This document shows, piece after piece, positions 10,997 through 31,539 of a stretch of 64,000 nt of DNA. The stretch comes from Bacteroidota bacterium (GTDB taxonomy: Bacteria > Bacteroidota > Ignavibacteria > Tepidaquicellales > Tepidaquicellaceae): assembly GCA_018266835.1 (NCBI GenBank), contig JAFDZP010000002.1:448419-512418 (forward strand), given 5' to 3'. Every line of letters begins with the position of its first letter. Position 1 is the first letter of the stretch. Below the pieces are notes generated by a model, which did no database searches, was not told the origin of the DNA, and saw nothing but the letters and a program-made list of their open reading frames with translations. The translations under genes and the position numbers were made by a program.

Positions 10997-11112
10997 TTTA
11001 ATCCTTTTTCCTTTTTTGATTAAATAAATAGTAAAAATAATGTTACGTTAAATTGTCGTTTTTAATTTCATTTGTCAATGAAAAAAAAGTTATATTCTAA
11101 ACTGTTTTCAAT

Positions 11113-11152
11113 AAAAAAGCCTATCCAACTATTACAGTTGAATAGGCTTTTA
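11113..11152 (-). terminator. Intrinsic terminator after the 635-residue cargo gene
   Basis: Stem AAAAGCCTATCCAACT / AGTTGAATAGGCTTTT with one mismatch and a 5-base loop, T-rich on the minus strand, just after the stop at 11172. Confidence 0.85.
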
Positions 11153-11171
11153 AAACTATAACAAATGATTA

Positions 11172-13079
11172 TTATTTTACAAGCATCATTTTCTTTGTTT
11201 CAGCAAAGTTGTTTGATTCAAGTCTGTAGAAGTAAACACCGCTTGAAAGAGCAGCAGCATTGAATTCAACAGAATAACTTCCTGTTGTCATGTTTCTGTT
11301 TAACAAGGTTGTTATTTCTTTACCCGAAATATCATAAACTTTCAGCGTTACAAATCCATTTTGTGGAATTGAGAAGCTAATTAAAGTTGAAGGGTTGAAT
11401 GGATTTGGATAGTTTTGGCTTAAAGAATATTCTTTAGCAATTGTACTGTTAAGCGATGGAATAACTGTTATTCCGCCGGCATTTGAGTTACAGAATGCTA
11501 ATAATGTAGCCAAAGTTCTTCTTAAGCCCATTCCTAATGAATTAGCAGCGCTGCCGCCTGTGTTCTGATAGTATCTTGGATCCTGGAAGCAGGTTACTAC
11601 GTTGTAGTTTGGCTGTACTCTTCCTATTGCAGCAAGTGTATCAGCTGCTGTATGTCCGGTGTATCCTAAAATCGGAACACTTCCGTTTGTTGTTGATGCC
11701 CCGTCAGGATAATAGTTATTTGCATTTGCAATACTATCTGTTACTGAAGGAGTTGTTGTGTTAAATACTATTTTTAGTGTGGCTGAAGCATTGTCAACTC
11801 TGTATATAATACCGAGTGCGTTTGCGAAATCTGCATCAAGGCCTGCGCTTCCTGTTCTTTGGTAATTATATGCTTCATCACCACCCATTAAAATAAGATT
11901 TTTCTTGTTGGCAGGCGTACCTGAGTTTAACCAGTTCATTAAGTTTACTCTTGCTGCTCTTCCAAGGTATCTGGTAGTAATTGTATTGAATGCAACTTCT
12001 GCTACGATAATTGTTTTATATGAGCTTAAGTTAGCCGGTAAAGTTGAGTTTGTGTCGAAAGTTGCAACATCAAAAGTTGAGATTAATGATGGTAAATATT
12101 TTACAAGTGAATCTCTGTTTGCTTTTGTTGTTGTTGCACCGCCTAATACTGTATCATGAACTAATACTAAAGTTGTTGGTGTTGGTGGTGCAGGCAGATC
12201 ACCTAAATCTACTACGAAAACTCTGTCAGGTGTTCCTTGTACTAATCCGACCCATGTTTTCTTTCCGGGAACAAGATTTGTAACAACTTCACCGCCGCCT
12301 GATGCTAATGGTGCGCCTGTTGTAAGAGGAACTGTGATATTTAACGGTGAACCAACCACAGCTAATGTACCTGCATTGTATTTTACTAATGCTGTACCTG
12401 TTGTTGATGTTGGTGTCTGGTCTGTACCTATCCAGATAAATGAAGTTGCTTGTGAACCGTTGTTTTCATAACCTGCAGAATATAAACCTGATGCAGGTGT
12501 TGTGATTGATGCACCCGGAATATTTACACCGTTTGTATCAACGCATACTAATGGACCTGTGAATGATGTTGTTCCTACCCAGAAACCATTTCTGTATGGG
12601 TCCCAAGTTAAAGCTCTTAATGTAGCTGCGCCACTGCATGTGATAGTTTTTACCACTGTTTTGGTGGCAGTATCAACACCAAAGATCTGGTTAGTTGTGT
12701 TTACACCCCAGAGTAAGCCTTTTGCAAAAGCCATATCTCTGAATGAACCTGTGCTACCTGTAACTGTGAAAGAGTCAATTCTTGTCCAAGCTCCGGTAAA
12801 TCTATAAAATTTATTAGCATTGAACTGACTGACGATATAGTATGAACCTGTCCATACAACACCGTAAGCAACTGCACTTCCTGGTGTCAGAGAGTCCACA
12901 TTGTGGTTTCTTAAAAGATCTCCGACAGCTTCTACAGAATTTGCATTAACATGACCCTTGATGTAGTGAGAGGACGACCAAGGATTAACTTCCGTAGAAA
13001 TTGAACTAGAGTTATCTTGAGCAAATGCATTGAATGCAAAAGCAAGTAACATTACAGACAAGAAAGTAATTTTTCTCAT
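11172..13079 (-). CDS. Secreted T9SS cargo protein: propeller plus unknown alpha/beta module
   Basis: A 635-residue secreted protein. It has a signal peptide (1-20), an N-terminal propeller-like module (about 50-290) almost identical to the one in the 821-residue protein, an alpha/beta module (about 300-545) and a CTD (about 550-635; SQNYPNPFNP, end MMLVK). The alpha/beta module has alternating strands and helices: LVLVHDTVLGG, YKTIIVAEVAF, LILMGGDEAYNY and VVTCFQDPRYY. It recurs in the 695-residue neighbour. The order of strands recalls flavodoxin-like or class I glutamine-amidotransferase/ThuA-like folds, but I could not assign a catalytic residue. Function unknown. Confidence 0.87.
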   Translation of the reverse strand: MRKITFLSVMLLAFAFNAFAQDNSSSISTEVNPWSSSHYIKGHVNANSVEAVGDLLRNHNVDSLTPGSAVAYGVVWTGSYYIVSQFNANKFYRFTGAWTRIDSFTVTGSTGSFRDMAFAKGLLWGVNTTNQIFGVDTATKTVVKTITCSGAATLRALTWDPYRNGFWVGTTSFTGPLVCVDTNGVNIPGASITTPASGLYSAGYENNGSQATSFIWIGTDQTPTSTTGTALVKYNAGTLAVVGSPLNITVPLTTGAPLASGGGEVVTNLVPGKKTWVGLVQGTPDRVFVVDLGDLPAPPTPTTLVLVHDTVLGGATTTKANRDSLVKYLPSLISTFDVATFDTNSTLPANLSSYKTIIVAEVAFNTITTRYLGRAARVNLMNWLNSGTPANKKNLILMGGDEAYNYQRTGSAGLDADFANALGIIYRVDNASATLKIVFNTTTPSVTDSIANANNYYPDGASTTNGSVPILGYTGHTAADTLAAIGRVQPNYNVVTCFQDPRYYQNTGGSAANSLGMGLRRTLATLLAFCNSNAGGITVIPSLNSTIAKEYSLSQNYPNPFNPSTLISFSIPQNGFVTLKVYDISGKEITTLLNRNMTTGSYSVEFNAAALSSGVYFYRLESNNFAETKKMMLVK

Positions 13080-13430
13080 TGTGTATTTTTATTTTGGTTA
13101 AATAAGTTTGTAAAAATGTTTTTTATTATAAACAAAAATAGTCCACCCCGAATAAATCAGAATGGACTTCTATTAAAAAAATTTATATAATATTAGAGTA
13201 TAGTATTTACGTACCAGTAAATTCACCTATGGATTCCTTTCTTGAGTACTTATTTTAGAGGTACTACAATTTTAGAAAAAAATAGGTATAAAGCAATAGT
13301 AAAAAAGAGATTTTGAATTTTAGAAGAAAGCCTTTTTTTATAATAATTTTATTTAAAATCAATAAAAAAACCCGTACCGGATAAACCGGAACGGGCTTCT
13401 TAATTAATTAATACTGATTAAATCGTTTTC
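13080..13430. other. Intergenic stretch between two cargo genes
   Basis: No credible gene. Besides the terminator at 13364-13400 it holds a second hairpin (13140-13168) that pairs fully only on the minus-strand RNA through G-U wobbles (AGTCCA / TGGACT arms), followed by ATTTTTG. This looks like a worn terminator, perhaps left by a lost gene. The rest is AT-rich 5' leader. Confidence 0.45.
13364..13400 (-). terminator. Intrinsic terminator after the 695-residue cargo gene
   Basis: Stem CCCGTACCGG / CCGGAACGGG with one mismatch, followed on the minus strand by a run of seven T. It lies just after the stop at 13431. Confidence 0.85.
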
Positions 13431-15518
13431 TTATTTCACTAACATCATTTTCTTTGTTTCAACAAAGTTGTCTGATTCCAGTCTGTAGAAGTAAACTCCG
13501 CTTGATAAGAATGCGCCGTTAAAATCTACTGAGTAGCTTCCTACCGTCATATTCTTGTTTACAAGTGTCATAACTTCTTTACCTGAAAGATCATAAACTT
13601 TCAACGATACAAAACCGTTTTGCGGAATTGCAAAAGTAATTTTTGTTGTCGGGTTGAAAGGATTAGGATAGTTTTGTGATAAAGCATATTTATCTGCAAT
13701 TGTGCTGACTATAGGAGTAGTATTTGTAATAGTTCCTCCGTTAAGTTTTGCATATCCGATTAAAGCTGCTAACCATGGTTTTAAATCACCATTTACAAAA
13801 TATCTCGGGTCCTGGAATGATGTTACTGCAAAATAACCTGTAGTACCTTTTGACACTGCAGCAACTGTATCTAATACTGAATGGTTGCCATATTTATAAA
13901 CAGGTGAACTTCCTAATGTAGGTGAAACTCCGTCAGGATAGTATCCTGCATCGCTAGGTGTCAACAAATTTCTGGTATTGCCGATATCAGTCAAAATACC
14001 GGTGATAGTTCCCGGTGAAGGCATACCGGAATCTACTCTGTAAATAAATCCACAATATCCTCTTGAGAATGCTGTGTCCGTATTTGTTTGTCCTGACTGG
14101 TCATAATTATAACCCTGGTCACCGCCGATAGAAATTAAAGCTTTTTTATCTGCAGGTGTACCTGAAGCTAACCATGCTTTAATATCAGTTCTGGCGCTTG
14201 TACCAAGAGCCAATGCTCCGCTGTTATCGTAGCTAGTTTCAACAAGAATTATTGTCTTATAACCTGACAAGTTTGGTAATACTGTAGCAGCAGTAAAATA
14301 ACTTACATCATAACCTGAAATCAGGCTCGGTAAATATTTCATAACTGAATCTCTGTCTGCTTTTCTCTTTGCTAAACCGCCTGAAACCGTTGAATCATGG
14401 AACAATACCAATGTTGAATTTGAAGGAGGAGGAGGAGCTGACAATGTATCTGTAAATACTAATGTATTTCCTGATAAAGCCGGACCTGATGTTACACCAC
14501 CGCCTATAACATACTTCCAAATACCGCTGTTGTATCTTACAGAACCGCTGGCATAAGCAAGCATAATTGAAGGCATGTTTGTCTGAGCAGTCCAGGTATT
14601 TGCACCCGGGCTGTATACATATGTTTCCTGTGAACCGGTGAATCCTGTTGAAGCACCGCCTGAAACAATAACACCTTTATTGCCCCAGGTTTGAGCATTC
14701 CATCTGTATCTGACACCTGCAGGATAATTAGCTCCTGTAGTCCATGTAATTTGACTTCTGTCTGATTGATTGATAACACCTCTGTATGTTACTGCTGTTA
14801 CTGCTACTGATTCATTAAGACCGCCGACATATACGATTGTATCGCCTGCCATTGCAAGCGCACCGTCGCCTCTTCCTAAAGGAAGACTTGTTGCTGTTCT
14901 CCATGAATTTGTCTTTGCATTATACATGAATACAGAAGTTCTTGTAACACCGTTTGCTCCGTAACCGCCGACCAGATAAATCAAGCTATCCTGATATCCA
15001 ACTGCTTTTACATACCACATACTGTCAGGTGCATTTGCTCCTGTTGACCATGTATTTGCATTAATGTTATACTTATACAAAGTCATGTTTGAAGCAGTAC
15101 CATTAAGACCGTCTAAACAGTAAATTGTATCGCCTAATTTTGCAGAACCCATAAGTCTTCTTCCTTGCGGTAATGGAGCCATTTGTGACCATGAATTAGC
15201 TGCGATATTATATCTGTATGTATTTACGCCGGCTGCTGTACCTGCACCTGTGGAGTCTCCACCGAATACATATACAAAACCTGAATCATTTCTTACATGA
15301 CCTACACCGCCATGATAATATCTGGCGCTTGGTAAAGCACTTCCAGATACCCATGCTCCGGTCATATCATATTGATTGTTCACCACTGGTATAGGTGACG
15401 TTGTGTTTAAAGCTTCTGCTATCGATGTAGCAGTGTTGCCGCCATTAGAATAATAAAATCCTAATGAAAGGACTACAAGTAGTCCTAAAGGCAGAAAAAA
15501 TGGAATGACTTTTTTCAT
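13431..15518 (-). CDS. Secreted T9SS cargo protein: Kelch propeller plus unknown alpha/beta module
   Basis: A 695-residue secreted protein with an N-terminal hydrophobic segment. Residues about 45-345 form a Kelch propeller of about six blades (VYVFGGD, LGDTIYCLDGLNG, IYLVGGYG, IVYVGGLNE, VIVSGGAST), with paired Gly and a conserved Tyr/Trp. About 355-600 is the alpha/beta module also found in the 635-residue protein (LVLFHDSTVSGG, YKTIILVETSY, ALISIGGDQGYNY, AVTSFQDPRYF). About 610-695 is a type A CTD ending MMLVK. A GAGG ribosome site precedes the ATG. The Kelch part is a binding scaffold; the alpha/beta part may be the active part. Function unknown. Confidence 0.87.
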   Translation of the reverse strand: MKKVIPFFLPLGLLVVLSLGFYYSNGGNTATSIAEALNTTSPIPVVNNQYDMTGAWVSGSALPSARYYHGGVGHVRNDSGFVYVFGGDSTGAGTAAGVNTYRYNIAANSWSQMAPLPQGRRLMGSAKLGDTIYCLDGLNGTASNMTLYKYNINANTWSTGANAPDSMWYVKAVGYQDSLIYLVGGYGANGVTRTSVFMYNAKTNSWRTATSLPLGRGDGALAMAGDTIVYVGGLNESVAVTAVTYRGVINQSDRSQITWTTGANYPAGVRYRWNAQTWGNKGVIVSGGASTGFTGSQETYVYSPGANTWTAQTNMPSIMLAYASGSVRYNSGIWKYVIGGGVTSGPALSGNTLVFTDTLSAPPPPSNSTLVLFHDSTVSGGLAKRKADRDSVMKYLPSLISGYDVSYFTAATVLPNLSGYKTIILVETSYDNSGALALGTSARTDIKAWLASGTPADKKALISIGGDQGYNYDQSGQTNTDTAFSRGYCGFIYRVDSGMPSPGTITGILTDIGNTRNLLTPSDAGYYPDGVSPTLGSSPVYKYGNHSVLDTVAAVSKGTTGYFAVTSFQDPRYFVNGDLKPWLAALIGYAKLNGGTITNTTPIVSTIADKYALSQNYPNPFNPTTKITFAIPQNGFVSLKVYDLSGKEVMTLVNKNMTVGSYSVDFNGAFLSSGVYFYRLESDNFVETKKMMLVK

Positions 15519-15933: not shown

Positions 15934-17985
15934 TCAAGAGTTTAAAACTCTTTTAATAACAACTCCCACTTTATCAGCACTTGGTAATACGGCTGCTTCA
16001 AGTCCTGAGTTCAAAGCAATTGCGGGAACGTTCAACGCACCTACTACTTCAACAGGTGCATCTAAATATTTAAAACATTCTTTTGATATTCTTCCTGCAA
16101 GGGATTCTGCAAATGAATTTAATGAGGGCTCTTCTGTTACGACTATACATTTATTATGTTTCATCACAGATGTATGCATCGCTTCCTCATCTATAGGATT
16201 AAGTGTTCTTAAATCTAAAATTTCTATCTGTCCCGGAAAATTCTTTGAAGCATTCAATGCCCAGTGTACTCCCATACCATATGTAATAATTACAAGCGAT
16301 TCGCCGTTATCAATTTTTTCCTGCTCAGCATGCTGAACAATCCTTGCCTTGCCGAACGGTATTATATAATCTTCATCGGGCTCAACTGTCATTGCATGAG
16401 ATGTACCCGGAACTTTGCTCCAGTATAATCCTTTGTGTTCAAACATAACTACAGGGTTTGGATCAAGATATGCTGACTTCAATAAACCCTTTAAGTCAGC
16501 GCCGTTGGAAGGGTAAGCAATTTTAATTCCTCTGATAGGAAGCAAGCTTGATTCAATACATCCTGAATGATACGGTCCGCCTGAGCCGTACGCTCCTATA
16601 GGAATTCTTATCACACAACCCACGGGATATTTCCCCATTGATAAATAACATGACTTGGATAATTCAACGTGTAATTGATTTACTCCTGCAAATGCATAAT
16701 CAGCAAACTGAATTTCAACAATCGGCTTTAATCCAACAGCGCTCATTCCTGCTGTCGAACCTACTATATATGCTTCTTGTATCGGTGTATTGAATACTCT
16801 GTGGTCTCCGTACTTCTGTGCAAGCGTCGCAGCCTCTCTGAATACTCCGCCTAATCTTTTTCCGACATCCTGACCGTACAGTAATGCATAAGAATCACTT
16901 TTCATAATTTCATCTACTGCATGCAGCGCGCAGTCAACCATTACAATCGGCTCTCTTCCATCCGGTTCTCTTTCGCCAAGTTCTTCAGTTACAGTTGTAG
17001 GAGCGAACTCATGGTCAGTAACAGTTGCCGGGTCAGGGTCAGGTGACTTCACAGCCTTATCAAATTCTTTCTGAATTTTTTTCATCGCTTCTTTTTCAAC
17101 TGAGTCAAGAGTCTCTAATTTTGCTCCGCGTGAAATAAGAAGTTTTTTTAATTTCGGGAACGGGTCAATCGCTTCATGCTTTTTCAGATCTTCTTCTGTT
17201 CTGTACCATTCTTTTCTTACGCCTGATGTGTGATGCCCGAGTAATGGTACCTCTGCATGCACTAATATCGATGCTCTGTTATTTCTTACGTAATCAATTG
17301 CTTCAGTCATTTTTTCATAGGATTCTACAAAGTCAGAACCGTTTATCTGCATTCTCTCCATGCCTTTAAATCCTGCAGCGTAATCATACGCATTCATAGC
17401 ATACATTTCATCTCCGCTGGCAGATATTCCCCAGTGATTATCCTGCACTAAATAAATTATCGGAAGTTTTTTTAATACTGCCATCTGAAATGCCTCTGCA
17501 ACTTCTCCCTCTGTAACAGAACCATCACCAAGGGAGCAAAGTACTATCGGCATTTTTTCTTTATCTAACTTCCCTTCCGCTTCTAAATAAGAAACTGCAT
17601 GAGCCATGCCTGTTGCAGGAATTGCCTGCATGCCCGTTGCGCTTGACTGATGCGGAATTTTAGGGAAACCGGGTTTATTAATCGAAGGATGCGAGTAATA
17701 AGTTCTTCCACCTGAAAAAGGGTCATCCCTTTTTGCAAGAAGCTGAAGCATTAATTCATAGGGAGAAAATCCAAGTCCCAGTAAAAATGATTCGTCCCTG
17801 TAATATAAACTTAAATAGTCTGATTCTTTTATCTGAAATGCGGCAGCAAGCTGAATTGCCTCGTGTCCGCGTGATGTTGAATGCACAAATTTGCATATCT
17901 GCCTGTTTGCATCATAAGTCTCTGCCATTGCTCTGGCATCGCACATTAAGCTGTAGGCTTTGAGAAGGATATCGTTATTTACCAT
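15934..17985 (-). CDS. Fused E1 alpha/beta component of a 2-oxoacid dehydrogenase complex
   Basis: A 683-residue thiamine diphosphate enzyme of the branched-chain 2-oxoacid or pyruvate dehydrogenase E1 type. The alpha half (about 1-320) has HxxG-type TSRGHEAIQL and the ThDP-binding GDGS...QDN motif (residues 153-155 and 181-183). The beta half (about 340-683) has the LLYGQDVG, GVFREA, GLKPIVEIQFADYAF and C-terminal transketolase segments. Alpha and beta are separate chains in most bacteria, and the fused form is common in Bacteroidota and relatives. No E2 or E3 gene is adjacent. It lies 49 bases after the truncated kinase paralogue, so read-through from the TPR genes is possible. Substrate not settled. 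Confidence 0.9.
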   Translation of the reverse strand: MVNNDILLKAYSLMCDARAMAETYDANRQICKFVHSTSRGHEAIQLAAAFQIKESDYLSLYYRDESFLLGLGFSPYELMLQLLAKRDDPFSGGRTYYSHPSINKPGFPKIPHQSSATGMQAIPATGMAHAVSYLEAEGKLDKEKMPIVLCSLGDGSVTEGEVAEAFQMAVLKKLPIIYLVQDNHWGISASGDEMYAMNAYDYAAGFKGMERMQINGSDFVESYEKMTEAIDYVRNNRASILVHAEVPLLGHHTSGVRKEWYRTEEDLKKHEAIDPFPKLKKLLISRGAKLETLDSVEKEAMKKIQKEFDKAVKSPDPDPATVTDHEFAPTTVTEELGEREPDGREPIVMVDCALHAVDEIMKSDSYALLYGQDVGKRLGGVFREAATLAQKYGDHRVFNTPIQEAYIVGSTAGMSAVGLKPIVEIQFADYAFAGVNQLHVELSKSCYLSMGKYPVGCVIRIPIGAYGSGGPYHSGCIESSLLPIRGIKIAYPSNGADLKGLLKSAYLDPNPVVMFEHKGLYWSKVPGTSHAMTVEPDEDYIIPFGKARIVQHAEQEKIDNGESLVIITYGMGVHWALNASKNFPGQIEILDLRTLNPIDEEAMHTSVMKHNKCIVVTEEPSLNSFAESLAGRISKECFKYLDAPVEVVGALNVPAIALNSGLEAAVLPSADKVGVVIKRVLNS

Positions 17986-18034: not shown

Positions 18035-19438
18035 TTATTTTACTGATTCGGATTCGTTTATTGCCAGCAGGTTGGAAATAATTCCCTGCATTTGACTGGT
18101 ATCTTCGAGAATATCAGTAAGATTTTGTATTCGCGAATTTGTATCCACTCTTTTAATTATTTCTAATTTATTTCCTATTTTCTCAAGAGGGAGTCTTAAA
18201 TCCTTTCCGGCAACGTTAAGAAAATAATTTTTTTCACTATTCAGCTTTACAAGTTCGTCATTTAAAGATTTCAAATGACTGTTCTTTCGTGAAAGAATTT
18301 CCGTCTCTTTCTTTGTAATATCTACTTTGTGCAGAATATTCAGCTTCCGGATTTTATCTTCAATTAATGTTTTAATCCTTTCCAAATCAAGTTCAGCATA
18401 TTTCCTCTGATACTCCAATGCAGTTTTATAATTTTTTTTCTTTAAGTAATATTTTGCAAAATGGAAATGAATCTGCATTACCAGTCTTTTGAGTCCAAGC
18501 TTTTCTGATATAACATTTGCTTCACGAAGCCATTCTACTGCCTCTTCATCTTTGCCTAATGCTAAAAGCGCAAGAGATAAATTAATAAGCGTATCACATT
18601 TATCAATATTATTTCCCGTGCTTTCATAATACCCGATACACTTATGAAAAATTTCGATTGCCTCATCCGCTCTTTCCACATTGATATAAGAGAGACCTAT
18701 ATTCTGGAGAATCCTGTGCTCCAGGAACGGGTCTCTTTCAAGTTCGGAATTAAATTCTAATGCAGCAAAGTAATACTTAAGCGCTTTATTGTAATACTTC
18801 TGAGTGATTTCCTGTTCATCCAAATTATCAACTAAAAATTCTCTTTCAGCAGCGATATTATTGTTAGTTAAAGCAATGTTGTACAGAGAGTAGATAATTC
18901 CGTTAACATCGCGTATATCTTTTTTAATTTTTATTGCAAGCTTATAATACTCAAGAGCAGAATCAAATTCCTTTGCAAGCAGATAACAATTACCTATAGA
19001 ATTTAAAGCGTCAGCTTCTCCCTTAAGCTGATTAGTCCTGTTATAAGCATCTACTGATTTAAAAAATGCTTCAATCTCATTCGTATAATCTCCGATATTC
19101 CAGTAACAAATTCCTATCTGCTGGCACACTTGTGCAGTAAGATGTAAGTCATTCGTTTCATCGGCAATTTTCTCTGCTTCACTTAACAATGGAATTGCGG
19201 AAGAATAATTTTCCTGCCTTGTATACATTAATCCCAAAACAAATTTAGCCCGGGCAATTCCTTTACTGTAGTTAATCAGATTGGCCATCTCCAGAGCATT
19301 TTCAGAGCAATATTTACATTCTTCATAAAGTTTTGTACGACAAAAATGTTCTGCTACCTGATTTATTCCGTCAATTTTTTCTCTGGCTTCTTCCGGCGGG
19401 AGTGTTCTGATGTCAGTATCTAAGTGAAGGTTTATCAT
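18035..19438 (-). CDS. TPR protein with truncated histidine-kinase dimerisation domain lacking His (paralogue 2)
   Basis: A 467-residue cytoplasmic protein with no signal peptide. About eight TPR repeats (20-350) are followed by a coiled coil (about 365-400) and a helical hairpin (about 400-467) that aligns with the DHp domain of the intact kinase at 20855. The phosphorylated His of HDLKNPL is replaced by Lys412 in GKDLRLPL. The protein ends right after the second DHp helix (ISNLLAINESES), so the whole ATPase domain is missing. It is a paralogue of the next upstream gene, 13 bases away. It cannot be a kinase itself. It may pair with the intact kinase or serve as a TPR scaffold. Confidence 0.85.
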   Translation of the reverse strand: MINLHLDTDIRTLPPEEAREKIDGINQVAEHFCRTKLYEECKYCSENALEMANLINYSKGIARAKFVLGLMYTRQENYSSAIPLLSEAEKIADETNDLHLTAQVCQQIGICYWNIGDYTNEIEAFFKSVDAYNRTNQLKGEADALNSIGNCYLLAKEFDSALEYYKLAIKIKKDIRDVNGIIYSLYNIALTNNNIAAEREFLVDNLDEQEITQKYYNKALKYYFAALEFNSELERDPFLEHRILQNIGLSYINVERADEAIEIFHKCIGYYESTGNNIDKCDTLINLSLALLALGKDEEAVEWLREANVISEKLGLKRLVMQIHFHFAKYYLKKKNYKTALEYQRKYAELDLERIKTLIEDKIRKLNILHKVDITKKETEILSRKNSHLKSLNDELVKLNSEKNYFLNVAGKDLRLPLEKIGNKLEIIKRVDTNSRIQNLTDILEDTSQMQGIISNLLAINESESVK

Positions 19439-19451
19439 TACATAGCTTGTA

Positions 19452-20843
19452 TTAGTTATTTAATGATTCTGTCTCGTTTATTGTCAGTAATTCGGAAATG
19501 ATTTTTTCCATGTGAGAAGATTCTTTCAGAATGGAATTTAGCGGCTCAACAGAATTACTCAAACTGCTTTTTTTTATAAAACCAGTGTGCCCGGATATTT
19601 TTTCCAAAGGTTGCTTTAAATCAATTGCAGCAAGATTAAGAAAATAATTTTTATCTCGGTTTAGTTTCAGAAGCTCTTCATGCTTCAATTTTAGTTTTTC
19701 ATTTTTTTCGGTTAATGCTTCTGCATGTTTTCTGGCAATATCAACTTTATGAAGCACATTCAGTTTTCTTATGTTATTATCGGTTAATGTTTTGTTACGT
19801 TCAAGATCAAGTTCCGTGCGCTTTCTGGCATAAAACAATGCCGATTTATAATCTCCTGTTGTCTTGTACATTTCTGCTAAGCTTCTATAAAGATTTATAC
19901 TATGTCTGTTTGAATGAAGCCTCTCAGCTATTTTCAGAGCTTCAAAAAAATATTCTTCAGCTTTTTTCCATTTTTTCATCCTGACATGTATTATCCCCAG
20001 ATAAATTACCGTATCACATTTATCAATATCGTTGTTAGTTTTTGTAAAGTAATCCACACAGTCTAAAAGTATTTCAGATGCTTTTTCAGACTCACCGCAG
20101 TTAGAATAATTCAACGCAATGTTCTGCAAAATTCTCTTTTCAAGGAAAATATCTTTTTCCAGCTTCTTGTTGAACTCCAATGCTTCCGAATAATACTTCA
20201 GAGATTTTCTATAATGCATCTGCGCAAGCTCACTGCCATCCGATAAGGTGAATGCAGCAATGTTGTTATGAATAAGCGCAATATTATAGAGGGAAAAAAT
20301 TATTCCTCTAATATCTTTTATTTTTCTTTTGATGTTCAAAGACATCTTGTGATACTCAAGACTTGAGTCATAGTCTCCGGTTTCAACAAAATAATTGCCT
20401 ATTGAGTTAAGACAGTTAGCTTCATCCTTTACAGATTTTATTTGCCTGTATAAATCCAGTGCTTTGAAAAAGCATTCACTCTCATTTTGATAATCTCCGA
20501 TATTCCAGTATGCAAGCCCCAGCTGATAACATGTCACGGCCGAGCTTTTTAAATCTTTAATAATATCAAATAATTTTTCTGCTTCAATTAAATTCTGAAT
20601 AGAGGAAAAATAATCTTCCGACATAAAGTTTATTTTTCCTATTACGTACTTCGCTTTTCCGATACCTTTAGAATAATTGATTGTCAGGGAAAGTTCTAAA
20701 GCTTTCTCAGCACAATATTTGGAATCCTCATAATTTTTTATTGAATGGAAATGGTCGGCTATCTTATTAATCCCGTCAATTTTTTTATGAGCTTCTTCTA
20801 TTGGAAGAGATATTATATCAATATTTAAATGAAGGTCTATCAT
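19452..20843 (-). CDS. TPR protein with truncated histidine-kinase dimerisation domain lacking His (paralogue 1)
   Basis: A 463-residue TPR protein of the same build as its downstream neighbour: TPRs (about 15-350), a coiled coil with KHAEALTEKNEKLKLKHEEL, then a DHp-like helical hairpin. The phosphoacceptor position is Ile407 (AAIDLKQPL), and the protein stops after ISELLTINETES, without an ATPase domain. It begins 11 bases after the intact TPR kinase and reads in the same direction, so all three are likely one operon. Keeping two such copies with clean reading frames argues against simple decay. Role unknown; a decoy or adaptor for the intact kinase is inference. Confidence 0.85.
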   Translation of the reverse strand: MIDLHLNIDIISLPIEEAHKKIDGINKIADHFHSIKNYEDSKYCAEKALELSLTINYSKGIGKAKYVIGKINFMSEDYFSSIQNLIEAEKLFDIIKDLKSSAVTCYQLGLAYWNIGDYQNESECFFKALDLYRQIKSVKDEANCLNSIGNYFVETGDYDSSLEYHKMSLNIKRKIKDIRGIIFSLYNIALIHNNIAAFTLSDGSELAQMHYRKSLKYYSEALEFNKKLEKDIFLEKRILQNIALNYSNCGESEKASEILLDCVDYFTKTNNDIDKCDTVIYLGIIHVRMKKWKKAEEYFFEALKIAERLHSNRHSINLYRSLAEMYKTTGDYKSALFYARKRTELDLERNKTLTDNNIRKLNVLHKVDIARKHAEALTEKNEKLKLKHEELLKLNRDKNYFLNLAAIDLKQPLEKISGHTGFIKKSSLSNSVEPLNSILKESSHMEKIISELLTINETESLNN

Positions 20844-20854
20844 TCAATATGAGT

Positions 20855-22654
20855 TCAGAATTCAAGGGTGAAAGTTGTACCGCTTCCGTAAACAGACTTG
20901 AAAGAAATATTTCCGCCGAGCATTTCGGTTAACTTCTTAACTATGGAAAGACCGAGACCGGTTGAGTTTTCTCCTGCTGTAGGTTTATTGGAAATCTTCG
21001 CAAATTTTTTAAAAACTTTTTCCTGCTCTTCTTCTTTTATACCAAGTCCGGTATCAATAATCTGAACTTTAAAATTGTTCACTGCATCAGATAAAATAAT
21101 CCAAACGTTTTTATTTTTATCGGAATATTTAATCGCATTGGAAATTAAGTTTTCCAGAATTTCAGTTAGAGCTGTTTCATCTGTAAGAAAAAACATTTCT
21201 CCTGTTTTATTCTCATACTCTAAAATAATATTTTTTTCTTCTGCAATATGTTTGAAATGAGAAACTATTTCTAAAACCAGAGAAGAAATATTGACAAATT
21301 TTAAATTTAGTTTGTACTCACCTGACTCGATTGCATTTACGTCAAGAAGATTGCTTAATATCATTTTCATTCTGTCAGTTACCGATTCTATTCTTTGAAT
21401 TACAGATTCAAATTTTTCCGGAGTAACTTTATTGATATTTTTAATTAGTGCCGAAGCCGCCAATGAAATTCCGTTAAGCGGATTTTTTAAATCGTGAACA
21501 GCTATCCCTAAAAATTCATTTTTTTCTTCATGCAATGCCCGCAGCGCATTATTCAATGCATCAAGCTCTTCATTTTTTTCATGCAGAATCTCAGCTTCCT
21601 TTTTAGCAACATCAACTTTGTGCGCAACGTTAAGATATTTTACTTTTAAATCCGAAAAATCTTTTGTTGCCTGTGTTTCAAGCTTGTAATAATTTTCAAA
21701 AACTTCGTAAGCTTTTTCATATTCTTCTAACGATTCATATGTATAAGAAAGATGGTAATAAATTTTGTTCTGGAGTTTTTTCGAATTTATTCTAAGAGCA
21801 ATATCCAGGGCTGTTTCCTGATGAATCAGAGCAGCTTCAAATTCATTCAAATGAAAATAAGCATTACCAATTAGGAGTTCAGTGTGCGCCATTGTAGATT
21901 CATCCTTATTCTCCGTAACAATTTCCATACACTTTGAATAATAATCCAAAGCTTTATGATAATCTTTTTGCTTCAGGTAAACTGATGCTATGTTGTTATA
22001 AGTTTTTGCAAGGGCATCATTATTCTTAACAAGATTAATATTCATTTCAAGGCTTTCATTCATCAGTTTCAGAGCATCATCAAGCCTGTTCAGATTTGAA
22101 TACAAAAATCCGAGATTACTTTTCATTGAGCAAATATCGGAAGGATTACCTACTTCATTAGCGAGCGCCATTGCAGTTTCTGCATACTCAAGCGAATTAT
22201 TAAAATCTTCCATCCAGCTATAACAGTTGGAAATATTGTTTAAAAACTGTGATTCGAGTTTTTTATTATTAAGCTCCCTTGAAATTTTTAGTCCCGAAAA
22301 ATAATTTGTAAGCGCGCTTGAAAAATCTCCGAGATTTGATAATGCAATTCCAAGGATATTCAGGCAGGATGCTTCTTCACGTTTGATTTCTAATGCAGAT
22401 GTAATTTGAAGGGCGTCAGTTATATTTTCCACCACTACGTCAAAATGACCTCGCTGCATCGATATCTTTGCAAGACCTAAATGCGCTTTATACAATGAAT
22501 CGGCGTCGTGAATTTCTTCAGCATAATTTTTCGCTTCAGTATATAATTTTTCTGCTTCTTCTAATTGCGAAGAAGTATAGTTGTTAAAAGCGATTGCAAG
22601 AAATTCCCGTAATTTCTCGGCTGTCGGTATTACTTTTTCTTCTATGGGTGACAT
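20855..22654 (-). CDS. TPR-domain sensor histidine kinase (soluble)
   Basis: A 599-residue histidine kinase with no membrane segment. About eight TPR repeats (10-340) form the input domain. A coiled coil (345-380) leads into HisKA, with the phosphorylated H387 in HDLKNPL. The HATPase domain (about 490-599) has the N box (EILENLISNAIKY), G1 (IIDTGLGI) and G2 (TGLGLSIVKKL). The chain ends TFTLEF as is usual. TPR input suggests a response to a partner protein or peptide rather than a periplasmic ligand. No response regulator lies nearby, so the partner is encoded elsewhere. It heads an operon with two His-less truncated paralogues and is divergent from the lipoprotein gene at 22758. Confidence 0.92.
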   Translation of the reverse strand: MSPIEEKVIPTAEKLREFLAIAFNNYTSSQLEEAEKLYTEAKNYAEEIHDADSLYKAHLGLAKISMQRGHFDVVVENITDALQITSALEIKREEASCLNILGIALSNLGDFSSALTNYFSGLKISRELNNKKLESQFLNNISNCYSWMEDFNNSLEYAETAMALANEVGNPSDICSMKSNLGFLYSNLNRLDDALKLMNESLEMNINLVKNNDALAKTYNNIASVYLKQKDYHKALDYYSKCMEIVTENKDESTMAHTELLIGNAYFHLNEFEAALIHQETALDIALRINSKKLQNKIYYHLSYTYESLEEYEKAYEVFENYYKLETQATKDFSDLKVKYLNVAHKVDVAKKEAEILHEKNEELDALNNALRALHEEKNEFLGIAVHDLKNPLNGISLAASALIKNINKVTPEKFESVIQRIESVTDRMKMILSNLLDVNAIESGEYKLNLKFVNISSLVLEIVSHFKHIAEEKNIILEYENKTGEMFFLTDETALTEILENLISNAIKYSDKNKNVWIILSDAVNNFKVQIIDTGLGIKEEEQEKVFKKFAKISNKPTAGENSTGLGLSIVKKLTEMLGGNISFKSVYGSGTTFTLEF

Positions 22655-25500: not shown

Positions 25501-28410
25501 TTATTTAACAAGTATCATCTTCTTCACATCACTGAAGTTTGCTGATGTAAGCTTATAAAAATATGTTCCGCTTGAAAGTGATGATGCATTGAAATCAACA
25601 GCGTAATATCCTGCCTGCTGAACTTCATTCACAAGCTGTTTAACTTCTCTTCCAGAGATATCAAATATTTTCAGAGTAACAAAACTGTTAATTGCTAATT
25701 GATAATTGATAATTGTTGTCGGATTAAATGGATTGGGATAATTCTGCATCAATGCAAATTTATTTGGCACTCCGATAACAACTTCATTTTGTAAATCATA
25801 ATATTTATAATTTCCATTGTAATCAATTTGCTTCAGTCTGTAGTTATATCTTCCGCTGTTAAGTCCGTTATCTGTGAATGAATAATTTCTTGCCGTATTG
25901 GAATTTCCTGCACCGGTTACAAATCCGACCTTTGTCCATCCTGTTCCGAATGAATTTCTTTCTATCTCAAATCCTAAATTATTTTCTTCGCTCACTGTAC
26001 TCCAGTTCAGCATAACATTATTTCCGTTCACATTTGATGTGAAAGATGCAAGTTCAACGGGTAATGCATAAACTGCAGTGTTTAAATAAACTGAAATTGA
26101 ACTGCTGTTACCATCGGCGCAAATTAAATCTTTCTTACCATCTAAGTTAAAATCTGATGCTGCAACTCCCAGAGGTCCGCTGCCTGCAGCGTAGTCTGTC
26201 TTATTGTTAAAAACCGGAGTTGACGAGCCGGGGGTTGTATTATTTAAATACACAGAGCAATAATCTGTGCCGCCGGAAGCATTAGTATATCCTAAATCAA
26301 TTTTACCGTCACCGTTAAAATCTCCAGTGCAAATATAGTTGGCAGTCCGAGTTGTTGCAAAATCTGTTTTTGCAGAAAATGTTGGAGTCGTTGCTCCCAA
26401 TGTAGTTGTGTTAAGAAAAACTGAAATCACTGAGGCGTTACCACAGGCAATATCAAGTCTTCCGTCGCCATTAAAATCTCCCGAACTAAGACCATATGCA
26501 TTTCCTGTAACAGCAAAATCTGTCTTAGCAGTAAATGTAGGTGTTGATGCGCCGGGTGTTGTTGTATTAATGTATACTGAAATATTATTACCATCTCTGT
26601 TACCAACTATTATATCAGCCTTACCATCACCGTTAAGATCTGCAGCAACAATTTTATTCGGAGATGTACCGGTTGTAAAAGTTGTTTTAGCCGTAAATGA
26701 TGGTGTGGTAGAGCCGGGAGTTGTTGTATTAAGTAGAACGGACATTGAAGTATTATTCATATCTGTGCATGCCAAATCCGGTAATCCGTCGCCGTTAAAA
26801 TCTGCTGCGACTAAATAATTTGCTGCATTAGTAGCAGCAAAATCTGTCTTAGCTGTAAATGTTGGTGTTGATGCGCCCGGTGTGGTCGTATTAATATATA
26901 CTGAAATAAGAGAAGGACCATAATTGATGCAGGCTAAATCGGGTTTACCATCGCCATTGAAATCGGCACTCCAGATACCTATTACAAATTGGTTAGCAGC
27001 AAAAGTTGTAGCTGATGAAAAAGAAGGTGTAGATGCACCCGGAACAATTGTATTCAATGATACTGAAATAGTAGAAGAGCCATAGTTGGTACAGGCAAAA
27101 TCAGGTTTACCGTCACCATTAAAATCCCCGGAGCAAACATCTTGTGGAGCTCCTGTTGTAGATAAAACTGTCTGTGCAGAAAATGATGGTGCATTAGTGC
27201 TTAAATCTGTTGTATTTATAAAAACTGAAATACTGTTTCCTGTTCCGGTATTACAAGCAACATCCGGTTTGCCGTCACCGTTAAAATCTGCTACAATGGG
27301 GAAATATGGCTGTGAGGCAGTTGTATTATCTGTTCTTGCAAGTAAAGTTAATGATGATGCATTCGGAGCAGTATTATTTAAAAATACTGAAAACTGCGCT
27401 GCACCTCTCGATGCGCTTAAAATATCAGGTTTACCATCACAATTCAAATCGCCCACTCCGACTCCGAATGGAGTTGAGCCTACAGCCAAATCTGTTTTCG
27501 CTGTAAACGAAGGAGTTGCCGAACCTGTTGTTGTTGTATTTAAAAAATATGAAGCAGATGAAGAGCCTCTGTTTGCGCAGACGATATCAGGCTTACCATC
27601 AAGATTAAAATCAGCTATTGCCACTGACCATACAGTAGTACCTGCAGTAAAGTCTGCTCTTGTTCCAAAAGTAGGGGTTGAAGAGCCGACCGTTGTTGTA
27701 TTAAAGAATACTGAAACCGATGCTGCGGTGTTATTAGGTACTACAACATCCGGTAAACCGTCTCCGTTTAAATCTGCCACTGCCAAGTGTGTTGGGCCGG
27801 CAGGAGTAGCGAATGCAGTCATTGCTCCGAATGTCGGAGTAGATGCTCCGGGCGTTGTTGTGTTTATGAACACTCCTATTGTGTTTGCTAACTGATTTGC
27901 AACTACTATATCTAGCTTGCCGTCTCCGTTCATATCTTTCAATACAACTGAGTATGGATTTGTACCTGTGGCAAAATCTGTTTTTGCAGACATTGTCGGA
28001 GTTGAAGCTCCGGGTGTAGTTGTATTAAGAAAAACAGATGCAGTAGCACTTGTAGTATTAACTGCAACCAGATCTAACAATCCGTCACCATTTATATCTC
28101 CGGCTGAAACGCTATGCGGAGCAGTGCCCGTAGCAAAATCTGTCTGAGCAGAAAAAGAAGGTGTAGAAGAATTAATAGCTGTAGTGTTTAATAAAATTGA
28201 GATGCCGTTTAAATTCTGATTAGCAGTTACTAAGTCCTGCTTGCCGTCGCTGTTTATATCAACAGGAATCATAAACATAGCGCCTGCGCTGGATGTTATT
28301 GTAATATCCGTTTTCGTTGTAAAAGTTACCTGCGCGAATGTTCTTTCTGTAAAGAAGCATAAAACAATAAGCGCAATGAATAACTTAACAAAAGTAAGTT
28401 TTTTGTTCAT
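25501..28410 (-). CDS. Secreted T9SS cargo protein with 14 FG-GAP/VCBS repeats
   Basis: A 969-residue secreted protein with a signal peptide (1-26). Residues about 28-800 carry 14 FG-GAP/VCBS-type repeats of about 55 residues, each with a calcium-loop motif like DFNGDGKPD. Fourteen blades would make two seven-bladed propellers (inference). Linkers such as NTTTPGASTPTF are nearly identical from repeat to repeat, a sign of recent internal duplication. A fibronectin-III-like domain follows (LPVELASFTSNV...LNWSTVSEENNLGFEIER; about 800-880), then a CTD (MQNYPNPFNP, end MILVK). Integrin-like propellers usually bind proteins or sugars with calcium. Its close paralogue is the next gene upstream. Confidence 0.9.
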   Translation of the reverse strand: MNKKLTFVKLFIALIVLCFFTERTFAQVTFTTKTDITITSSAGAMFMIPVDINSDGKQDLVTANQNLNGISILLNTTAINSSTPSFSAQTDFATGTAPHSVSAGDINGDGLLDLVAVNTTSATASVFLNTTTPGASTPTMSAKTDFATGTNPYSVVLKDMNGDGKLDIVVANQLANTIGVFINTTTPGASTPTFGAMTAFATPAGPTHLAVADLNGDGLPDVVVPNNTAASVSVFFNTTTVGSSTPTFGTRADFTAGTTVWSVAIADFNLDGKPDIVCANRGSSSASYFLNTTTTGSATPSFTAKTDLAVGSTPFGVGVGDLNCDGKPDILSASRGAAQFSVFLNNTAPNASSLTLLARTDNTTASQPYFPIVADFNGDGKPDVACNTGTGNSISVFINTTDLSTNAPSFSAQTVLSTTGAPQDVCSGDFNGDGKPDFACTNYGSSTISVSLNTIVPGASTPSFSSATTFAANQFVIGIWSADFNGDGKPDLACINYGPSLISVYINTTTPGASTPTFTAKTDFAATNAANYLVAADFNGDGLPDLACTDMNNTSMSVLLNTTTPGSTTPSFTAKTTFTTGTSPNKIVAADLNGDGKADIIVGNRDGNNISVYINTTTPGASTPTFTAKTDFAVTGNAYGLSSGDFNGDGRLDIACGNASVISVFLNTTTLGATTPTFSAKTDFATTRTANYICTGDFNGDGKIDLGYTNASGGTDYCSVYLNNTTPGSSTPVFNNKTDYAAGSGPLGVAASDFNLDGKKDLICADGNSSSISVYLNTAVYALPVELASFTSNVNGNNVMLNWSTVSEENNLGFEIERNSFGTGWTKVGFVTGAGNSNTARNYSFTDNGLNSGRYNYRLKQIDYNGNYKYYDLQNEVVIGVPNKFALMQNYPNPFNPTTIINYQLAINSFVTLKIFDISGREVKQLVNEVQQAGYYAVDFNASSLSSGTYFYKLTSANFSDVKKMILVK

Positions 28411-28553
28411 TGGGGAAAAGTGTGAATTAGTTTTTAATGATTAATATTGGTGTGACCTCGTTTAGACGAAAAATATCATTTTCAGAGTAGTATTACAATT
28501 ATAAAATTTTGATGAAAATAATTCAGAAAGGTTTGCATTGAGCTGCATAAAAT

Positions 28554-28590
28554 AAAAAGCCTCTCCTAAAATAAAGAAGAGGCATTCACT
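28554..28590 (-). terminator. Intrinsic terminator after the 963-residue FG-GAP gene
   Basis: Stem GCCTCTTC/GGAGAGGC read on the minus strand, followed by TTTTTATTTT. It lies about 60 bases after the stop at 28648, separated from it by a 9-base tandem repeat. Confidence 0.75.
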
Positions 28591-28644
28591 TTACGAACTT
28601 TACAAACTTTACGAACTTTACAAACTTTACAAACCTTTAAAAAC
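28590..28644. repeat. 9-base tandem repeat, five to six units
   Basis: Units TTTACGAAC, TTTACAAAC, TTTACGAAC, TTTACAAAC and TTTACAAAC in a row, then a worn copy. The array fills the gap between the stop codon of the 963-residue gene and its terminator. Such arrays change length by slippage. Confidence 0.85.
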
Positions 28645-28647
28645 TTT

Positions 28648-31539
28648 TTACTTAATCACCACCATCTTCTTCACATCACTAAAATTATCAGTGGTAAGTT
28701 TATAAAAATATGTTCCGCTGGAAAGTCCTGCTGAATTGAAACTAACTGTATAATATCCCGCTGTCTGATTTTCATTTATTACGTTCATAACTTCCTTTCC
28801 TGTTACATCATAAACTTTAAGACTTACAAAGCTGTTAACTGCTAATTGATAATTGATAATTGTAGCAGGATTAAACGGATTCGGATAATTCTGCATTAAT
28901 GCAAACTTAGTTGGGATTCCTATCACAACTTCATTCTGCAATTCATAATATTTGTAATTTCCGTTGTAGTCTATTTGTTTCAATCTGTAAGAATATCTAC
29001 CGGTATTCAATCCTTTATCAATAAAAGAATAGCTTTGTGGTGCGTTCACTGTTCCATTACCTGCCGCAAAACCTATTTTGCTCCAATCTCCTCCGAAGAA
29101 ACTTCTTTCAATATCAAAGCCTGAATTATTCTCTTCCATAACTGTGTTCCAGTTCAATGTAACGCTGTTATTAACTACTGTTGATGTGAAAGATGAAATC
29201 TCAACCGGCAGAGGCAGTATTGATGTTGAAAGAAATACGGAGTAATAATTTGAACCTGTATATGCTACAGCTATATCCTTCTTAAAATCTCCGTTAAAAT
29301 CTGTAACAACTAATCCGCATGGTCCGGTTTGAGTAGCCATATCAGTTTTTGGCGCAAATGAAGGAGTTAGTGAACCGGGAGTAGTATTATTCAATGATAT
29401 TGAAATAGTATTAGACTGAAAATTTGATACAACTAAATCTATCAATCCGTCATTATTAATATCTCCGCTCGTGACAAAAACCGGCTGAATGCCGGTAACA
29501 AAATTTACCGCTGAAGAAAAAGAACAAGTCATTGTTCCCGGTGCGGTGTTATTCATTAAAACGGAAATATTGTTATCAGTTTGATTTGATACTGCAATGT
29601 CGGGCTTGCCGTCTCCGTTAAAATCCGCCACAGTTAGTGAAACAGCTCCGCTGCCTGCGGAAAAATCTAATTTGGGAAGAAATGAAACTGGACTCCCCGC
29701 AGGAGTATTATTTATAAAAACTGAAACGTTATTCGATGACTGGTTTACCACTGCAAAATCGGGTTTGCCGTCGAAATTAAAGTCACCTGTTTGAACGCAG
29801 CTTGGTCCGTTCCCCGTTACAAAATCTGTTTTAGGTAAAAATGAAGGAGTTGTTACTCCCAATGCTGTATTATTTATTAAAACAGAAGCTGTATTTGAAA
29901 TATTATTAGCAGCAACTAAATCAGGCTTACCGTCCAGATTAAAATCTGCAGCATCTGCCCATGAGGGTCCGCTGCCAACTGTAAAATCATTCTTAGTTGA
30001 AAATACTCCTAACGCGCCGCCGGGAACAACATTGTTTCCAAAAACAGAAACTGATGAAGAATTACTGTTAGCAGCAGCTAAGTCCGGTTTGCCGTCCATA
30101 TTAAAATCTGCCGAAACAACTGAATTAGGAATATCTCCTGTGAAAAAATTCCTGCGCTCGGAAAAAAGAGGATTCATAGAACCCACTCCCGCTTTATTAA
30201 TTTGTACAACTACACAATTATAACTCGGGCTCACGGTTGCTATATCTTTTTTTCCGTCCATATTAAAATCCTGAGATGTAATGTATGATTGATACTCGGC
30301 AAAAGTAAAATCTTTTCTGGTGCTGAACGAAGGTGTAGCAGTGCCCAGTGTCGATGTATTAAGATACAAAACCGCAGTAGTATTCGTTCCAAGAATATCC
30401 ATTTTTCCATCACCGTTAAAATCAGCATAACATATCCACGTAACACCTCCTTGAGGAATATCAAATCTTGTATGAAAATAAGGAATAAATGAACCTGCAG
30501 CCATTGTATCAAGAAAAATAGACATTGAATGGCACGCTGTCAGCATATCCGGTTTTCCGTCGTTATTAATATCCCCTACTTCAAATTGAAATGCATCGCC
30601 CGCATTTACAAAATCTTTTTTTGCTGTAAAAGTTGGCGTAGATGAACCCGGCGTAGTTGTGTTAATAAGAACAGCCAGCACAATTGTAGGCACGTGAATC
30701 ATATTCGTAGCGGCTATATCAAGCTTACCGTCTCCGTTAAAATCTGCCAGCCTTGTTACAGCTGTTCCTGAATCTGTAGGGAAATTTGTTGCTGCTGAAA
30801 AGGTTGGAGTAAAAGCTCCCGCCGCTGTGGTGTTTATAAAAGTTGAAAGAAATGTTTGCCCGTAAATAGGAACTACTAAGTCCGGCTTACCGTCATTATT
30901 AATGTCTCCAACTGCATGATCGTAAGGTGCCTCTCCCGTAGGAATTGCAATAACTAAAAAGGTTGCAATTGTATCTCCCGAAGTCATCATATTTGTGAAT
31001 ATAGTTACTGAATTACCTAGCTCATTGCAAACGGAAAAATCCAGTTTACCATCCTGGTTAAAGTCTCCTGTTTTAATTCCTTTAGGGAATGTTCCTGATA
31101 TAAAATCCTGTTTTACAGTGAAGGAAGGAGTCAATGAGCCGGAGGGTGTTTTATTAAAAAAGAGCGAAATAGTTGCAGCATTTGTATTTGCCGTTACAAT
31201 GTCCGGTTTACCGTCTGCATTAAAATCACCTGCTATAAGATGCTGTGAATAAGCCCCTGCACGAAAGGGAACTCCGGCTGTAAATGTTGGAGTAAAAGAA
31301 CCTGTGACAGTTGTATTAAGACATACCCGAACATCGTTTCCGCCAAATTCACCTACTGCAAAATCCGGCTTACCGTCAGTGTTGAAATCTGCTACAACAG
31401 TTCCCCACGGAGCCCAACCAAGCGGAAAACTTGTAGGAGAAGAAAATGTTAACTGGGCAGGTGTATCATTAATGATTAAAATTGAAAATAAAAGAAGAAT
31501 AAGAAGGAAAAATTTTAATGTGTAAGCTTGGTTTTTCAT
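28648..31539 (-). CDS. Secreted T9SS cargo protein with 14 FG-GAP/VCBS repeats (paralogue)
   Basis: A 963-residue secreted protein with a hydrophobic signal (about 8-28). It carries 14 FG-GAP repeats (about 35-790), each with a DxNxDGxxD loop; the last one (DFNGDFKKD) has lost its loop Gly. A fibronectin-III-like domain (LPVEISSFTSTV...LNWNTVMEENNSGFDIER) and a CTD (MQNYPNPFNP, end MVVIK) follow. It is the same in build and repeat number as the neighbour at 25501, so the pair arose by tandem duplication. A strong AAGGAG ribosome site lies 5 bases before ATG, but the leader can fold so as to hide it (see 31524-31585). The ligand is unknown. Confidence 0.9.
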   Translation of the reverse strand: MKNQAYTLKFFLLILLLFSILIINDTPAQLTFSSPTSFPLGWAPWGTVVADFNTDGKPDFAVGEFGGNDVRVCLNTTVTGSFTPTFTAGVPFRAGAYSQHLIAGDFNADGKPDIVTANTNAATISLFFNKTPSGSLTPSFTVKQDFISGTFPKGIKTGDFNQDGKLDFSVCNELGNSVTIFTNMMTSGDTIATFLVIAIPTGEAPYDHAVGDINNDGKPDLVVPIYGQTFLSTFINTTAAGAFTPTFSAATNFPTDSGTAVTRLADFNGDGKLDIAATNMIHVPTIVLAVLINTTTPGSSTPTFTAKKDFVNAGDAFQFEVGDINNDGKPDMLTACHSMSIFLDTMAAGSFIPYFHTRFDIPQGGVTWICYADFNGDGKMDILGTNTTAVLYLNTSTLGTATPSFSTRKDFTFAEYQSYITSQDFNMDGKKDIATVSPSYNCVVVQINKAGVGSMNPLFSERRNFFTGDIPNSVVSADFNMDGKPDLAAANSNSSSVSVFGNNVVPGGALGVFSTKNDFTVGSGPSWADAADFNLDGKPDLVAANNISNTASVLINNTALGVTTPSFLPKTDFVTGNGPSCVQTGDFNFDGKPDFAVVNQSSNNVSVFINNTPAGSPVSFLPKLDFSAGSGAVSLTVADFNGDGKPDIAVSNQTDNNISVLMNNTAPGTMTCSFSSAVNFVTGIQPVFVTSGDINNDGLIDLVVSNFQSNTISISLNNTTPGSLTPSFAPKTDMATQTGPCGLVVTDFNGDFKKDIAVAYTGSNYYSVFLSTSILPLPVEISSFTSTVVNNSVTLNWNTVMEENNSGFDIERSFFGGDWSKIGFAAGNGTVNAPQSYSFIDKGLNTGRYSYRLKQIDYNGNYKYYELQNEVVIGIPTKFALMQNYPNPFNPATIINYQLAVNSFVSLKVYDVTGKEVMNVINENQTAGYYTVSFNSAGLSSGTYFYKLTTDNFSDVKKMVVIK

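Follow-up and report, generated by a model that had tools for sequence, protein, structure and literature searches.

Known histidine-kinase pseudokinases are a few hand-found examples, most of which have kept either the CA domain or the phosphorylated histidine. RocA of group A Streptococcus is a kinase-like accessory pseudokinase that interacts with and modulates a real kinase, CovS; the His is not needed for its action, and a CA-less form complements if overexpressed (PMC7028121). FasB and FasC, two co-encoded kinase-like proteins, form a hetero-dimer in which FasC is the proposed pseudokinase, with a dispensable kinase domain (PMC12675982). The pseudo-histidine-kinase DivL switches the intact kinase CckA between states, and the kinase paralogue RetS inhibits GacS via hetero-dimer formation (PMC12189002). 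Judged by analogy, the closest published case to the proteins described here is ChrS_CA-fs, a laboratory-evolved, CA-less kinase of C. glutamicum whose gained regulatory effect needs the DHp but not the His; despite this effect, no hetero-dimer of CA-less ChrS was detectable in two-hybrid assays (PMC9491836), a result that on the same analogy counts against a pairing model.

We analysed a locus in a 64,000-nt stretch of Bacteroidota DNA (hereafter, the whole stretch is called the window), in which an intact soluble TPR sensor histidine kinase is followed by two paralogues that lack both the phospho-acceptor His and the CA domain. These proteins differ from known pseudo-histidine-kinase accessory proteins in having lost His and CA together, in their soluble TPR sensor and tandem duplication, and in recurring within a single genome. 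RocA sits in the membrane and keeps a degenerate CA domain and its own His, and its family combines a membrane-spanning sensor, a DHp and a degenerate CA domain; the window paralogues, in contrast, are soluble TPR proteins with no membrane-like segment, no His and no CA domain, and lie in one operon with an intact kinase. FasC keeps its phosphorylated His (H246) and CA domain, RetS is a hybrid kinase-like protein with other domains retained, and ChrS_CA-fs is a laboratory frameshift mutant in which the His is present. DivL, with Tyr in place of the His, differs in having retained its CA domain. A literature search on this group turned up nothing about TPR kinases with dead partners.

Anatomy of the three-gene locus

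The features of the locus, all on the minus strand of the window, are as follows.

20855..22654, (-), intact soluble TPR sensor histidine kinase P0003, 599 aa, with TPR, signal helix, HisKA DHp with H387, and HATPase_c
21320..21523, (-), DHp (HisKA) domain of the kinase, residues 378-445 (Pfam)
21494..21496, (-), phospho-acceptor H387 of the kinase, CAC codon, in AVHDLKNPL
20861..21184, (-), CA (HATPase_c) domain of the kinase, residues 491-598, missing from both paralogues
19452..20843, (-), first pseudokinase paralogue P0002, 463 aa, with TPR, signal helix and DHp remnant, without CA
19653..19793, (-), signal (coiled-coil) helix of the first paralogue, with an HKVD-to-His-column distance of 42 residues, the same as in the kinase
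19464..19652, (-), DHp remnant of the first paralogue, residues 398-460, AAIDLKQPL, HisKA 26.0 bits, core 16/18 hydrophobic
19623..19625, (-), Ile407 at the phospho-His position of the first paralogue
18035..19438, (-), second pseudokinase paralogue P0001, 467 aa, with TPR, signal helix and DHp remnant, without CA
18233..18373, (-), signal helix of the second paralogue, in the same register
18044..18232, (-), DHp remnant of the second paralogue, residues 403-465, AGKDLRLPL, predicted helical hairpin
18203..18205, (-), Lys412 at the phospho-His position of the second paralogue

The gap between the kinase gene and the first paralogue is 11 nt and that between the two paralogues 13 nt, and the region showed no terminator-like site on the minus strand. 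An earlier note, made from the letters of the window, had described a kinase and two paralogues with these gaps and clean frames, and our coordinates, frames, gaps and lengths all agree with it. Its residue assignments are equally sound: residue 387 of the kinase is the His of HDLKNPL, and the same position is I at residue 407 of the first paralogue and K at residue 412 of the second. Both open reading frames stop 2-3 residues past the DHp model, in line with its statement that the paralogues end right after the second DHp helix.

The intact protein has what a HisKA sensor histidine kinase requires, a phospho-acceptor His and a complete HATPase_c domain with N (NLISNAIKY), G1 (DTGLGI) and G2 (GLGLSI) boxes. 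Its Pfam matches are TPR_12, HisKA (46.9 bits, E 2.9e-12) and HATPase_c (90.5 bits, E 1.2e-25). No segment is hydrophobic enough for a membrane helix in the kinase (maximum KD19 1.22), and the paralogues likewise have no membrane-like segment (maximum KD19 0.95 and 1.31). The best NCBIfam model for both the kinase and the second paralogue is the FimS-type TPR histidine kinase (NF053520), which the intact kinase resembles in combining TPR, HisKA and CA; however, the score is far under the family cut-off (166 vs 600 bits), and the paralogues match in the TPR alone.

As sensor histidine kinases, the paralogues fall short in the phospho-acceptor His and in the CA domain. Their Pfam HisKA matches are faint, sub-threshold in the first paralogue (26.0 bits with the cut-off at 26.9, E 1e-5) and very weak in the second (E 0.018), and neither has a Pfam match to HATPase_c. 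A model built for this kinase group, which has both remnants among its rows, scores each of them at ~2e-38. The AlphaFold model of the second paralogue (mean pLDDT 89.6) has a TPR solenoid at residues 15-333, an unbroken 95-residue helix at 337-431 and a second helix at 437-464, a predicted shape that is as expected for a signal helix and DHp hairpin. The nearest solved folds to this model are LGN-type TPRs, with Rap and NprR lower in the list. In all three window proteins, 42 residues separate the HKVD motif from the His column, whereas other kinases of the genome have seven-residue insertions or deletions there; this common register makes pairing between the kinase and the dead proteins geometrically possible.

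Selection on the hairpins and origin of the pair

The earlier note had suggested testing the DHp remnants for purifying selection, and we find it: in pairwise codon likelihood, omega = 1 is rejected for the 65-codon DHp remnant by itself (2dlnL 14.6), as well as for the TPR part (172.7) and the whole gene (221.7). The NG86 omega of the paralogue pair is 0.43 in the DHp and 0.22 in the TPR, values that are rough because synonymous sites of the pair are saturated; they point to weaker constraint on the hairpin than on the TPR. The remnants have also kept their hydrophobic core (16 of the 18 core positions) and coiled-coil register. Fourfold-site divergence within the pair is 0.54, within the range of 0.46-0.69 seen when orthologues of the genus's two available species are compared; the frames have thus stayed intact and under constraint for roughly the time since the species split.

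The two paralogues are 51% identical to each other. In a tree of 31 TPR kinase proteins, they are sisters with 100/100 support and do not group with the neighbouring kinase. Relative to most kinases here, both have a hairpin some four residues short, and they end at the same point. The 'parallel loss of His' proposed in the earlier note is not supported by this combination of sister relationship, common shortened hairpin and common end point, which makes one truncation followed by tandem duplication simpler than parallel losses. This order of events fits best, and the His-column residue would have diverged to Ile and Lys after the duplication. The paralogues are not recent copies of the neighbouring kinase, with which they share 20% TPR identity, no more than with other kinases.

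The earlier note had named a lack of conservation in relatives as grounds for refuting its reading, and taken literally this is what we see. Among 28 genomes of the family, 43 of the order and ~390 of the class, the one congener included, we found neither an orthologue of the paralogues nor an orthologous operon, and contig scans of genomes gave nothing for the paralogues above 21-24% TPR similarity. The system is therefore lineage-specific. To judge from these comparisons, the absence of orthologues indicates a recent lineage-specific origin, or loss elsewhere, and not a lack of selection.

Co-directional tandem TPR kinases are common in the genus, with three further pairs in this genome. The congener (G001) probably has a tandem TPR kinase triple (L088:4986-9618 at the end of contig C24, with L072:2-1045 at the start of C29), the third member of which is split between the contig ends. 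The flanks of this triple match a locus of the present genome (L080) that has two kinases there. Flanking genes of the two loci are 80-95% identical but the kinases just 57-60%, so TPR kinases in the genus evolve quickly and their tandem arrays have a fast turnover.

A second His-less, CA-less case in the genome

Our survey of this genome and its family took in 98 DHp segments, no more than 97 of them distinct; in this genome, all HisKA open frames up to ~740 aa were checked. The phospho-His is missing in three of ~97 segments, those of the window pair and of a 188-aa protein on contig C4, and in these three proteins alone is the CA domain genuinely missing, so that His loss and CA loss go together. 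Each of the three directly follows an intact TPR kinase. The arrangement is beyond chance.

The C4 protein (L078:6400-6966) lies 3 nt behind its kinase (L078:6970-8757) and has few TPR helices, a signal helix and a DHp hairpin in which Glu occupies the His column, but no CA domain; its model (pLDDT 91) shows TPR helices and a hairpin. Common ancestry with the window pair is unsupported, given its long branch and the levels of identity (signal helix 26-32%, DHp helices 16-31%). Having no special kinship to the pair, it is best read as a second event, apparently a separate one, its tree position being unsure. Of the columns that hardly vary among 18 intact kinases, the His and two at the junction of DHp end and CA are the only ones lost in all three remnants; the phospho-His is the single invariant of the DHp proper to be replaced, and D/E+1, L+2, P+5 and I+9 are kept in all three.

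Several apparent CA-less kinases in relatives were rejected. Two (L095 and L100) reflect runs of N in the assembly, and one (L104) runs off its contig. The fourth, in the congener (L099:2675-4225), is a TPR kinase with a frameshift in the CA domain, which is either an assembly error or a decaying kinase; its His is intact and its CA domain readable in another frame.

Proposed action and its alternatives

The two paralogues are very probably functional, maintained pseudokinases. They combine kinase homology, lost catalytic residues and selection, the features of a pseudo-histidine-kinase accessory protein, and because the part used for pairing is still under selection, they are probably catalytically dead kinase partners and not debris. 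Kinases of this type are dimers held together by the signal helix and DHp. In the mechanism we propose, an ancestral tandem TPR kinase would have lost its CA domain and His and then been duplicated, and the products would associate via signal helix and DHp, both among themselves and with the intact kinase encoded alongside them. The dead subunit of a mixed dimer would supply neither phosphate acceptor nor CA domain, so that autophosphorylation of the kinase would be lowered or re-tuned: blocked if it occurs in trans, or halved if in cis. It would also bring its own TPR input, and the net effect would likely be ligand-dependent inhibition or gating of the kinase. By analogy, such an action would match those of RocA, FasC, DivL and RetS on real kinases. 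Dead TPR-signal helix-DHp subunits pairing with the kinase is our best explanation as a whole, one that we hold with about even confidence. Whether the neighbouring kinase is the partner is likewise finely balanced. Nothing singles it out: the DHp modules of the pair are no nearer to it than to several other kinases of the genome.

The main rival is that the paralogues pair only with each other or with themselves, forming a kinase-free TPR receptor that holds a peptide or protein ligand or docks a response regulator, with the kinase merely co-transcribed. Such a receptor would suit a pair that are each other's closest relatives, whose DHp is not specially similar to that of the adjoining kinase and whose predicted TPR solenoid is similar to TPRs that bind peptides and proteins (LGN, and bacterial Rap and NprR). 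It would, however, need an output, and the sole output-like part retained is the signal helix and DHp hairpin; moreover, the C4 case also lies directly behind a kinase, and we consider this reading unlikely.

Two further possibilities seem improbable to us. The remnants could keep the regulator-binding face of the DHp and act as response-regulator decoys or phosphatases, sequestering or dephosphorylating a partner regulator, a role compatible with the conserved acidic +1, L+2 and P+5. Yet Asn or Thr at +4 is required for HisKA phosphatase activity, and this residue is replaced by Q, L and L in the three remnants; furthermore, no response regulator was found among the neighbouring genes scanned in the window. 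The proteins could also be relics of a kinase gene without its CA domain, their remains drifting or kept for the TPR alone. Their lineage restriction would agree with this, as would the frame-shifted TPR kinase of the congener, which suggests that kinases here may decay. But that kinase differs in its intact His and readable CA domain, and the genes of the window pair end cleanly, with no trace of a CA domain in the 13- and 49-nt gaps, and have a DHp under selection; the relic reading is already disfavoured.

The pairing of dead subunits with an intact kinase would have wider implications. Joint loss of His and CA has occurred at least two times in one genome, each time directly behind an intact TPR kinase, and selection on the dimerisation hairpin is seen in the window pair, the one case that could be tested. 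We tentatively suggest, as a possibility short of an even chance, that soluble TPR kinases of this lineage repeatedly spawn co-encoded 'half-kinases' (TPR, signal helix and DHp, with His and CA lost together), a recurrent class of dedicated dead subunits that would gate the kinase next to them or supply it with a second TPR input. If pairing is true, nature provides here a clean test both of whether a sensor joined to nothing more than a DHp hairpin suffices to regulate a kinase in trans and of how tandem kinase arrays become hetero-oligomeric receptors.

A gene for an E1-type 2-oxoacid dehydrogenase with fused alpha and beta parts (window 15934-17985) lies on the same strand, 49 nt past the last pseudokinase gene, and may share its transcript. 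The E1 gene has a different gene setting in relatives: in the neighbourhoods of three of them, no relative of the window's TPR proteins adjoins it, and the single congener has no full-length E1 orthologue at the cut-off used. Several large proteins flanking the locus carry a C-terminal sorting signal for type IX secretion (window 9101-15518 and 25501-31539); those at 9101-15518 match Pfam Por_Secre_tail, and those at 25501-31539 have similar C-terminal ends.
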